The notes beneath the pieces were generated by a model. That model did not search any database, was not told the origin of the DNA, and was given only the letters and a program-made list of their open reading frames with translations. From Actinomycetota bacterium (lineage in GTDB: Bacteria > Actinomycetota > Acidimicrobiia > Spongiisociales > UBA5794), in the NCBI GenBank assembly GCA_013151445.1, contig JAADIG010000011.1, positions 1 to 48,192 of the forward strand: DNA of 48,192 nucleotides, in the 5' to 3' direction. Position numbers and translations under genes: made by a program. Positions 8,856-11,561 of the stretch are shown one piece after another (within the stretch, counting starts at the first letter, position 1; every line of letters begins with the position of its first letter).

Positions 8856-9542
8856 CTAGCCGTTTCCACCCGGTCCGTCGTCGGGGAACGTAACCGGTGA
8901 AGACTCAATGCGATAGGCACAACGCCTGTCCCCATCCATGAGGTACTCGACTCTCTCGACATGCACACCGTCGCCGAGCACACCTCGGAACATGTCCAAC
9001 TCCCCGGCGCAGAGCCTTTGGCAGATTGTTGCTGCCGCACACACGGGACAATGGCTCTCCCACAACAAGAACCTCCCTGCGGCCTCCTCGACCCAACCGG
9101 ACATGTAACCGTCCTCGGTACGCAGCTCGGAGAGCTTTTCGACACGATCTGCAAGCGGTGCGTCGACCTCAATGCGTTGCAGATAGTCCTGCATCTGGGC
9201 ACGGACGCGCTCGGCGATGAGGCGTTCGACTCCGGCGTCACCGAACGCCGCCCGGGCGGCAGCTATCAGGGCCAGCGTCAAGTTGGCGTGGGTATCAGGG
9301 AAACACGCGTTGGCTTCTGCGGAGGAAACAACGTGCCATCGTTTCTTCGGACGACCGACCGTTCCCGCCCTCACTTCCTCATAGTCGATCAAACCCTCGG
9401 TTTGAAGCTCACACAGATGCTGACGAATCGCAGATGATGTAACCCGCAGTTGGTCGGCGAGACCCGATGCCGTTGTCGGACCGGATTTCTTCAGCCTAAG
9501 AAGGATCTTCTCTCGTGTTGCATTGCCAGCGGTGGGACACAT
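8856..9542 (-). CDS. Winged-helix transcriptional regulator with Fe-S-type cysteine cluster (SufR-like)
   Basis: 228 residues. N-terminal winged helix-turn-helix (residues about 9-65, with TTASGLADQLRVTSSAIRQH), then GRPKKRW as the wing, a helical linker, and a C-terminal cluster of cysteines (HCPVCAAATICQRLC) followed near the C-terminus by RRCAY. The spacing resembles SufR, a regulator that binds DNA according to its iron-sulfur cluster. The start at 9542 is chosen because the HTH then begins at the normal distance; upstream in-frame residues look like non-coding. It is the first gene of a chain ending in lysS (42 bases before the DUF2520 gene). No suf genes are in view, so the target may be its own operon. 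GTGGTACTAC, an imperfect palindrome near 9560, is a possible operator. Confidence 0.8.
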   Translation of the reverse strand: MCPTAGNATREKILLRLKKSGPTTASGLADQLRVTSSAIRQHLCELQTEGLIDYEEVRAGTVGRPKKRWHVVSSAEANACFPDTHANLTLALIAAARAAFGDAGVERLIAERVRAQMQDYLQRIEVDAPLADRVEKLSELRTEDGYMSGWVEEAAGRFLLWESHCPVCAAATICQRLCAGELDMFRGVLGDGVHVERVEYLMDGDRRCAYRIESSPVTFPDDGPGGNG

Positions 9543-9613: not shown

Positions 9614-10180
9614 TCAGGAGTTGAGTAGGCCGAGTGCGAGGATCACGACGAGGAGCCCACCAACCGCGACCCACATCGCCCGCTTCAACGACCGCACACC
9701 CGGGGACTCGAGTCGACGAACATTCTGATCCGCCACCGCCGACAGGGCCCCCGCAGGATCGGGTACTCCGGGAATCTCGACGCGCGGGAATGCTTCGAGA
9801 AGGGGTTCAAGTACGAACCGACGTTCGGCGAGACGGGGATGAGGAACCGTGAGGCCGGGCTCGTCGATGCTCTCATCGCCGAACACCAGGAGGTCGAGGT
9901 CAATGGAGCGCGGCCCCCACCGTTCGCGACGGACACGCCCAAGGTCTCGCTCGATGTTTAGTAGCTCATCCAGTAACTCCCGCGCCGTCAGTTCAGTGTC
10001 GAGAACCGCGACGGCGTTGAGGAATGCATCCTGGCGCGGTCCACCGATTGGATCGGTCTCGTAGAGCGATGACATACCCACAAGAGTTCCGAGTTTGCGC
10101 ATCCGGTCAACCGCCCCGCGGAGCAGTTCGCATCGATCTCCAAGGTTCGACCCGAGCCCCACGAGGGCGCGGGTAGGCAC
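9614..10180 (-). CDS. folK: 6-hydroxymethyl-7,8-dihydropterin pyrophosphokinase with C-terminal membrane segment
   Basis: 188 residues. Transfers pyrophosphate from ATP to hydroxymethyl-dihydropterin in folate synthesis. Catalytic domain complete: GLGSNLGDR, YETDPIGGPRQDAFLN, ERDLGRVRRERWGPRSIDLD and VPHPRLAERRFVLEPL. Residues about 140-163 form a linker, then KRAMWVAVGGLLVVILALGL near residues 165-185 is a single hydrophobic helix preceded by Lys-Arg and followed by only two or three residues. Such a tail would anchor the enzyme on the inner face of the membrane; typical FolK (about 160 residues) lacks it. GTG start two bases after the upstream stop. Enzyme identity is certain; the tail is read directly from the sequence. 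Confidence 0.93.
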   Translation of the reverse strand: MPTRALVGLGSNLGDRCELLRGAVDRMRKLGTLVGMSSLYETDPIGGPRQDAFLNAVAVLDTELTARELLDELLNIERDLGRVRRERWGPRSIDLDLLVFGDESIDEPGLTVPHPRLAERRFVLEPLLEAFPRVEIPGVPDPAGALSAVADQNVRRLESPGVRSLKRAMWVAVGGLLVVILALGLLNS

Positions 10181-10182
10181 GA

Positions 10183-10656
10183 CTACGCCTTCTGGGAGAT
10201 CAACCGACGACCCTCGGGACCCATCGCGCGGCCGATGATCTCCTGAATTGTTGCCGTCGCCACGATCGGGTCTTCCACAAGACCGGTGTGGACCAAGAAC
10301 CCACCGAGTAGACCGACGACCGTGTCATCGACAAGATCTCGGTGCAACAGGACCACCGCATCGGCGGGTTTCATCGCTTCGGATAACACCGCAAAGATCG
10401 CGGGCGCTTCGTCGACATCGAAGTCCTCATCGACGACATAGTGTGCGTAGGCGAGACCTGCGAGTTCGTAGGCTGCTTCGTTCTGGTTCCCGGCGAGCAG
10501 CGACACGACGGAGTTAATCCCAGCATCAACGAGCCAGAGGATTTCTTCCTCGCGACGCACGCGCCGATGTTGGATTCCGTACCCGCCGATTCGTTCCGAA
10601 ACCGCGAGCTTTCCATTGATCACCCATGTGAAACCCCTGGGCTCTAAACCTGCCAC
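10183..10656 (-). CDS. Degenerate dual-specificity-phosphatase-like protein between folP and folK
   Basis: 157 residues from the GTG at 10656. The layout matches small dual-specificity phosphatases: FTWVINGKLAVS at the N-terminus, a helix then GINSVVSLLAGN, YAHYVVDEDFDVDEAP, and a P-loop-like position VVLLHRDLVDDTV. In active enzymes that loop reads HCxxGxxR; here the Cys is Arg and the terminal Arg is Asp, so phosphatase chemistry is not expected. The start is chosen because GAGAGG lies five bases upstream and it keeps the FTWV block; it overlaps folP by 13 bases and ends two bases before folK. This position in folate operons commonly holds folB (dihydroneopterin aldolase), which is not seen here. 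Function unknown; the fold assignment is by eye. Confidence 0.65.
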   Translation of the reverse strand: MAGLEPRGFTWVINGKLAVSERIGGYGIQHRRVRREEEILWLVDAGINSVVSLLAGNQNEAAYELAGLAYAHYVVDEDFDVDEAPAIFAVLSEAMKPADAVVLLHRDLVDDTVVGLLGGFLVHTGLVEDPIVATATIQEIIGRAMGPEGRRLISQKA

Positions 10657-11561
10657 GACGACCTCTCTGATCCCGAAATATTGTTGATGCGAGTAGCTAC
10701 GATAGCGTCCGCGACGCGTGCAACCTGAACCGTACACGCAACGTTGTGCACGCGAACAATCGAGACTCCCTGACTGATCGCCAACGCAGTGGTCGCATCC
10801 GTTGCCGGATCGCGTCCCGCCGGGGGAATATTGAACCCCTGAGACTCCAGAATCAGGCCAAGCAGTCCCTTGCGTGACGCACCGAGCAGCACCGGATATC
10901 CGAGTTCGACAAGGCTGCCAAGGTCAGCAAGCACCGCCATATTGTGATGAAACGTCTTCCCGAATCCGATACCCGGGTCGATGGCGATGTGCAACGGATC
11001 GAGCCCTGCCCCAACAAGCCGACTACCCGCCACCTGGAGAAAACCCCGCACCTCCTCCACGACGTCTCGATAGACCGGACGACTCGGCATTGCATGCGGC
11101 GAACCCTGCATGTGCATCGCAACGACCCCGGCACCAACATCGACCGCCACCTCGACCATGGCTGGGTCCGTGAACCCGGTGACGTCGTTGATGATCTGTG
11201 CACCGGCGACAACGGCGGCCCGAGCGACGTCCGGTTTGAATGTGTCGACCGAGACAACTACACCCGCCGCATCCAAACCCTCAATAACGGGGATCACACG
11301 TTCGAGTTCTGTTGCACCCGAAACCGGCGTGGACCCGGGTCGGGTACTTTCGCCCCCGACGTCGACAATGTCGGCGCCATCGGATACCAGGCTAAGACCA
11401 CGTTCGATGGCACGCGACACCAACACATCTTCGCCAACCATGACCGAGCCACCATCGGAAAACGAGTCGGGGGTGACGTTCAGAATCCCCATCACCAACG
11501 TGTGGTGCCCAAGTTCGAACGTGTGCGACCGCAGTCGCCACGAACCCTGTTGGTTAGGCAT
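10644..11561 (-). CDS. folP: Dihydropteroate synthase
   Basis: 305 residues. Joins hydroxymethyl-dihydropterin pyrophosphate to p-aminobenzoate; the classical sulfonamide target. Seen: MGILNVTPDSFSDGG, DVGGESTRPGS, VSVDTFKP, INDVTG, IDPGIGFGKT and LLGASRKGLLG, the full TIM-barrel signature set. The ATG at 11561 lies inside the end of ftsH (8-base overlap) behind GGCGAGG; longer in-frame starts run through ftsH and are rejected. With folK downstream it supplies two successive folate steps. Confidence 0.96.
   Translation of the reverse strand: MPNQQGSWRLRSHTFELGHHTLVMGILNVTPDSFSDGGSVMVGEDVLVSRAIERGLSLVSDGADIVDVGGESTRPGSTPVSGATELERVIPVIEGLDAAGVVVSVDTFKPDVARAAVVAGAQIINDVTGFTDPAMVEVAVDVGAGVVAMHMQGSPHAMPSRPVYRDVVEEVRGFLQVAGSRLVGAGLDPLHIAIDPGIGFGKTFHHNMAVLADLGSLVELGYPVLLGASRKGLLGLILESQGFNIPPAGRDPATDATTALAISQGVSIVRVHNVACTVQVARVADAIVATRINNISGSERSSWQV

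Follow-up and report, generated by a model that had tools for sequence, protein, structure and literature searches.

The locus raises the question of why HPPK (FolK), an antifolate target that is generally regarded as a soluble enzyme, should end in a hydrophobic helix. The copy studied here, FolK1, is encoded in the 48,192-nucleotide stretch of DNA that was analyzed (the window). We asked whether its tail is genuine, whether it fixes the enzyme in the membrane, and whether folate synthesis is organized there. The relevant features are listed in Table 1.

Table 1. Coordinates in the window of folK1, its parts and its neighbors
Feature	Position	Strand	Basis and remarks
folK1 gene	9614..10180	minus	GTG start; 188 aa; C-terminal tail; starts 2 nt past the stop of protein X
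HPPK catalytic domain of FolK1, residues 7-130	9791..10162	minus	PF01288, TIGR01498
C-terminal helix of FolK1 (predicted), residues 160-187	9620..9703	minus	AlphaFold, insertion energy, kept in congeners
Best transmembrane segment of FolK1 (predicted), residues 165-186	9623-9688	minus	Lys166-Arg167 at its start, Asn-Ser after it
Protein X, 158 aa	10183..10659	minus	Dual-specificity-phosphatase fold (predicted), no catalytic Cys (HRD replaces HC)
folP (dihydropteroate synthase)	10644..11561	minus	PF00809 1.1e-76, synteny; inferred ATG start, 305 aa
HTH regulator	8856..9542	minus	71 nt downstream of folK1; inferred ATG start

The catalytic part of FolK1 matches Pfam PF01288 over residues 7-130 (2e-38, 131.8 bits versus a cut-off of 25.7), and the protein scored 142.7 bits against the NCBIfam folK model TIGR01498 (cut-off 54.1). 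The Pfam search returned nothing beyond HPPK over a cut-off, and thus no methyltransferase domain after HPPK. All 12 active-site positions checked were kept; these we take to be, in E. coli numbering, N10, N55, E77, R82, R84, R88, W89, R92, D95, D97, H115 and R121. The full set was also kept in 17 of the 18 FolK1 proteins with a transmembrane (TM) tail, and dN/dS of the HPPK part was 0.09-0.15 in the six computable pairs. These results suggest that FolK1 is a catalytically intact HPPK, its enzymatic activity being predicted from sequence. It shares the complete domain and the active site with known HPPK enzymes and differs from them by its C-terminal membrane helix; the 28 matched PDB sequences align within residues 3-142.

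Past the HPPK domain the sequence reads ...SLKRAMWVAVGGLLVVILALGLLNS, in which Lys-Arg is followed by a hydrophobic stretch and then by Asn-Ser, and the linker between the domain and Lys-Arg is AVADQNVRRLESPG. The hydrophobic stretch stops two residues short of the stop codon. AlphaFold, run with a 32-sequence alignment, predicted one helix over residues 160-187 (mean pLDDT 94.2, block means 82-96). The tail had an apparent insertion energy of -2.78, the lowest within the protein, whose HPPK domain begins at residue 7 and which has no evident N-terminal signal. For comparison, the first TM segment of FtsH gave -2.88, and eight further proteins encoded in the window gave +1.75 to +3.33 at their best segments. 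Lys or Arg stands on the N-terminal side of the helix in 17 of the 18 TM tails and is missing from the C-terminal side in 16, and the charge bias of FolK1 itself fits an N-in/C-out orientation. We therefore agree with the earlier note, which had described a complete HPPK followed by a single hydrophobic C-terminal helix, with Lys-Arg before it and two or three residues after it, and had called for a topology prediction.

It is probable, on the sequence and the models, that FolK1 is a catalytically intact HPPK whose tail anchors it in the inner membrane and whose catalytic domain lies in the cytosol; insertion and topology of the tail are predictions. The HPPK domain would fold in the cytosol, and the last ~22 residues would cross the membrane, leaving Lys-Arg on the inner side and the C-terminus on the outer one. 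The reaction that precedes FolP would thereby be kept at the cytoplasmic surface of the membrane. In the S. coelicolor survey (PMC3087755) and the E. coli study (PMC6794478), tail-anchored proteins of bacteria have a single C-terminal TM segment like that of FolK1. They share with it the absence of an N-terminal signal, the expected N-in/C-out orientation and the terminal position of the helix, which two residues follow in FolK1. The E. coli study reports that a helix of this kind at the C-terminus can insert with less hydrophobicity than it needs at an internal position (PMC6794478). Unlike those proteins, FolK1 would have a folate enzyme as its anchored domain. The main texts of PMC3087755, PMC6794478 and PMC10924467 make no mention of folK or folate, and 'pyrophosphokinase' is absent from the two of these papers in which it was looked for. 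Among the matches listed, which were open PMC papers (most subscription papers lie outside this scope), no title or abstract opening described a membrane-anchored FolK.

A frameshift or assembly error that fused an unrelated downstream frame to folK1, the artefact with which the earlier note had reckoned, is extremely improbable and was rejected. A single-TM tail is present in both congeners examined (L002, identical with L101, and L003). The first of these, Bacterium BMS3Bbin02 from a separate assembly, has a FolK1 that is 80% identical overall to that of the window and agrees with it in length, frame and stop. None of the other five frames of the tail stretch is hydrophobic, four of them scoring +4.9 or more and one being broken by stops, and tails of this kind occur at 18 non-redundant loci.

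Drift of the tail was simulated in 1000 runs each to 55% or 30% nucleotide divergence. At 55%, 0.2% of the runs ended at or below the insertion energy of L003 (observed divergence 59%, a figure that hinges on an uncertain tail alignment), and at 30%, 1.1% were as low as -2.5 (observed divergence from L101, 33%). Tail dN/dS was 0.09-0.22 in six of nine pairs, with 0.14 for the window versus L101; one pair was saturated, and the two pairs with L003 gave ~1.1 (1.17 and 1.05). The tail residues of L003 thus drift freely against the other two, yet its helix is still insertable, unlike the outcome of simulated drift, and a generic anchor therefore fits in the genus of the window. In the wider TM-tailed group, five computable pairs had tail dN/dS values of 0.09-0.22, similar to those of the remaining protein, and 14 of the 18 FolK1 proteins with TM tails have [IVL]WW close to the tail end, which fits a more constrained anchor. 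A plain anchor would not require so specific a pattern, which would suit a hydrophobic helix that binds a partner, by dimerization or through a membrane protein, rather than lipid alone. We regard this as quite unlikely, since the genus of the window lacks WW but has kept its tail hydrophobic, as a generic anchor predicts.

We investigated the distribution of the tail in a sample of 41 genomes, including that of the window. FolK1 was found in 38 of them, and three had a second FolK only. Sorted by hand, the 38 comprised 11 with a single-TM tail, 10 methyltransferase fusions, 6 thioesterase-type fusions, 2 fusions to uracil phosphoribosyltransferase (UPRT), 1 to an aminoglycoside-phosphotransferase (APH)-like domain, 2 with a Trp/Arg tail, 5 without appendage and 1 cut by a contig end. 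FolK1 lies within ~1.5 kb of protein X in 37 of the 38, the last pair being split over contig ends, and because of this adjacency an alignment of X was used for fetching further loci. The best 80 of 113 relatives were taken (each bacterial or archaeal species being represented by one genome), labeled Acidimicrobiia/Acidimicrobiaceae, Actinomycetota/Actinobacteria/Actinomycetes, Acidobacteria or plain bacterium. With the other genome loci they yielded 114 distinct FolK1 domains, 87 from the order of the window and 27 from other families of its class, after 14 FolE-fused ORFs, 7 partial and 77 duplicate domains had been left out. L101-L180 were assigned to the order by X identity (49% or more) and the tree, not by taxonomy. 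Appendages were labeled by regular-expression and hydropathy rules, and by hand for 5 AH, 3 TE, L153, L166, L179 and L206.

The 87 FolK1 proteins of the order comprised 24 methyltransferase fusions, 23 without appendage, 18 with a TM tail (the window included), 11 acyl-CoA thioesterase fusions, 5 with Trp/Arg tails, 2 UPRT fusions, 2 APH-like fusions, 1 with a weak TM tail and 1 apparently frameshifted. The survey of FolK tails suggested by the earlier note thus found such tails both within the genus and across the order. Insertion energy was below zero in 18 of 18 TM tails, a result that is partly circular because a hydropathy cut-off had defined this class, and in 0 of 23 tailless proteins of the order, 0 of 24 scorable outgroup proteins, 0 of 5 Trp/Arg tails and 0 of 1 weak TM tail (+1.0). 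The latter, at L179 2716-3303 (+), is a weaker hydrophobic C-terminal helix with basic residues on both sides. No TM tail was present in the 24 scorable FolK1 proteins of other Acidimicrobiia families, 26 of the 27 proteins from those families being without appendage and one fused to a DUF2520-like next-gene product. Nor was one found in the phylum control of 52 domain rows from 50 FolK loci in 50 Actinomycetota genomes. For this control, 50 of 79 listed places were scored, two loci gave two rows each, and three loci (L226, L234 and L249) belong to the class of the window, L234 also to its order. In L206 and L252, FolK shares one frame with a Rossmann/DUF2520-like protein, which in L206 is clearly the usual next gene.

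The appendages themselves are diverse. A PEMT/ICMT-like membrane methyltransferase is fused to FolK1 in L129, L134, L165, L176 and 20 further loci, and PEMT was over the cut-off in all four fusions tested. Thioesterase fusions are L107, L109, L113, L117, L120, L121, L123, L124, L127, L156 and L015, with acyl-CoA thioesterase over the Pfam cut-off in the three tested; L123 has lost some active-site residues, so that its HPPK active site is degenerate. L112 and L125 encode FolK1 and UPRT in one open frame (2/2 tested), and L160 and L164 carry the APH-like domain, with a Pfam APH match in L164 (1.7e-24) and none in L160. A Trp/Arg-rich basic tail occurs in L017, L135, L137, L155 and L159, whose sister in the tree is the TM-tailed L116 (support 95, starred). 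That these tails bind membranes, perhaps peripherally, is a guess, the helical moment being clearly above that of shuffled sequences in only three of the five. In this order of uncultured Acidimicrobiia the C-terminus of FolK1 is a replaceable slot, and the tailed FolK1 looks, from the sequences, like a variant of a known enzyme in which sister lineages swap the attached part.

A quick tree of 114 rows and 135 columns left 49 of 111 inner branches open. The FolK1 proteins of the order group together (100, starred), with one outgroup row, L187, inside. Methyltransferase fusions fill the first branches of the order with moderate support, the first of these (17 of 21 rows) having a support of 84, not starred. 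The tree needs 18 changes over 11 labels and 7 for the TM tail alone; independent gains of the tail are not claimed, as a single clade gave p-AU 0.148 and a single origin is not rejected. The fusions, which belong to sister families within the order of the window, have TM helices after FolK1 at the same locus, although their methyltransferase-like domain has multiple helices and the FolK1 of the window has one. The tail could be what remains of an ancestral FolK1-methyltransferase (PEMT/ICMT) fusion that lost its later helices, a leftover anchor. The abundance of the fusions and their place in most of the first branches favor such a remnant, as does their first TM segment, which in sequence lies at a similar distance past the same ...DQxV... 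junction. We consider it possible but somewhat unlikely: hhalign gave a probability of 0.2% for tails versus methyltransferase, in a comparison for which the tail is too short to decide well, and the [IVL]WW of most TM tails is absent from the first TM segment of the methyltransferase.

The genome of the window encodes a second FolK (L081 5213-6412 (+), G000:C101), fused to GTP cyclohydrolase I (GTP_cyclohydroI 2.1e-74, HPPK 8e-22) and with FolB before it. In the 13 genomes read, the second FolK carries in the same frame what we take to be the GTP cyclohydrolase I motif. FolKE of Lactococcus lactis is one fused protein, which resembles this second FolK rather than the tailed FolK1; set against the comparison, the equivalents of Trp89 and His115 are replaced in the second FolK in 14 of 14 rows from these 13 genomes. 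The folKEPQC cluster of L. lactis is named in PMC1971073, and FolK duplication is already known, that paper leaving open whether both copies are active.

Because of the second FolK, FolK1 may be dispensable. G014 (L068; 94% complete) has no FolK1 within ~1.5 kb of X and a FolE-fused FolK as the sole FolK found, indicating that FolK1 apparently can be lost. FolK1 might then be redundant wherever the FolB-FolK2-FolE cluster exists, its C-terminus drifting and gaining fusions without function. Of the 37 genomes with a FolB match, 25 have FolB beside the second FolK (12 have it at the FolK1 locus, with one FolK match), and G014 is among the three in the sample that have the second FolK alone; six kinds of appendage and the degenerate L123 point the same way. 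Such redundancy is nevertheless distinctly improbable, as the low dN/dS of the HPPK part and the intact active sites of the TM-tailed proteins argue against it, and methyltransferase fusions occur in genomes that yielded no second FolK (10 of 10 in the 41-genome sample). Where gene order was compared, the FolK1 locus included FolB in all 20 methyltransferase fusions and in 9 of the 21 tailless loci of the order.

Returning to the tail-anchored HPPK, our guess is that anchoring localizes or stabilizes FolK1, with the FolE-fused second FolK beside FolB as a separate soluble module. The anchor possibly serves hand-over to FolP or X near the membrane, or regulation, or is a leftover of methyltransferase fusion. 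A membrane position is not required, since related lineages have soluble appendages or none. The fast change of tail residues in the genus of the window (dN/dS ~1.1 in two of three pairs) and the degenerate L123 also speak against the anchored reading.

The gene order TilS-Hpt-FtsH-FolP-X-(FolB)-FolK1-[appendage]-DUF2520-PanC-CoaX-LysS is mostly kept from the outgroups to the window. Of the 26 outgroup loci without a tail, 12 have FtsH in the gene run of FolK and all 26 have X (by which they were fetched); therefore neither marks the tail. The proximity of FtsH to FolK1 is ancestral synteny and is not tied to the tail, and the hint that the earlier note saw in it falls away. The same applies to the odd protein upstream, X, which occurs throughout the class (185 of 198 Acidimicrobiia genomes) and adjoins tailless FolK too. 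Predicted TM segments were found neither in X (best insertion energy +1.9) nor in FolP (+3.33), and FolK1 therefore alone of the folate proteins in this chain looks anchored. Of the proposal of membrane-linked folate synthesis, the predicted FolK1 anchor stands and the wider organization is a guess, for which the only encouragement comes from sister lineages in which the methyltransferase fusion, and possibly the Trp/Arg tail, would lead to the membrane.

In a broader, speculative reading that is unlikely as a whole, the C-terminus would be a docking slot by which several lineages placed the step before FolP at the membrane through unrelated means (methyltransferase fusion, tail anchor, perhaps an amphipathic Trp/Arg tail). 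In lineages with two FolK proteins, soluble FolB and FolK2-FolE would make bulk precursor, membrane FolK1 would act locally or in a second role, and X would be a possible partner. A lineage with a membrane-fixed HPPK, and with sister lineages that exchange the attachment, would make the spatial organization of bacterial folate synthesis directly testable, and the class-wide X and the two-FolK genomes are further subjects to which this points.

Protein X had no Pfam match over the cut-off and no NCBIfam match. Its model (pLDDT 91.6) matched DUSP23/VHZ 4erc (E 4.4e-07, TM 0.73). Across 39 alignment rows the cysteine loop is HRD-type or similar and lacks the catalytic Cys of what we take to be the dual-specificity phosphatase motif, HCxxGxxR; one of 40 class-wide X loci (L183) reads HC, with the rest of the motif absent. 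X is thus, on its model, likely a pseudophosphatase. That it always stands beside FolK1 was rejected, as G014 and L181 (outside the order) have X without FolK1 nearby. A role as FolB replacement was also rejected, since the genome has FolB at another place, next to its second FolK (G000:C101:4921-5253), and one as the missing dihydroneopterin-phosphate phosphatase is not claimed, the fold fitting but the catalytic Cys being absent. On the other side of folK1, the HTH regulator adjoins FolK1 in the two congeners and, at a threshold of E 1e-4, is missing from all other loci whose gene order was compared; its best segment has an insertion energy of +2.30.
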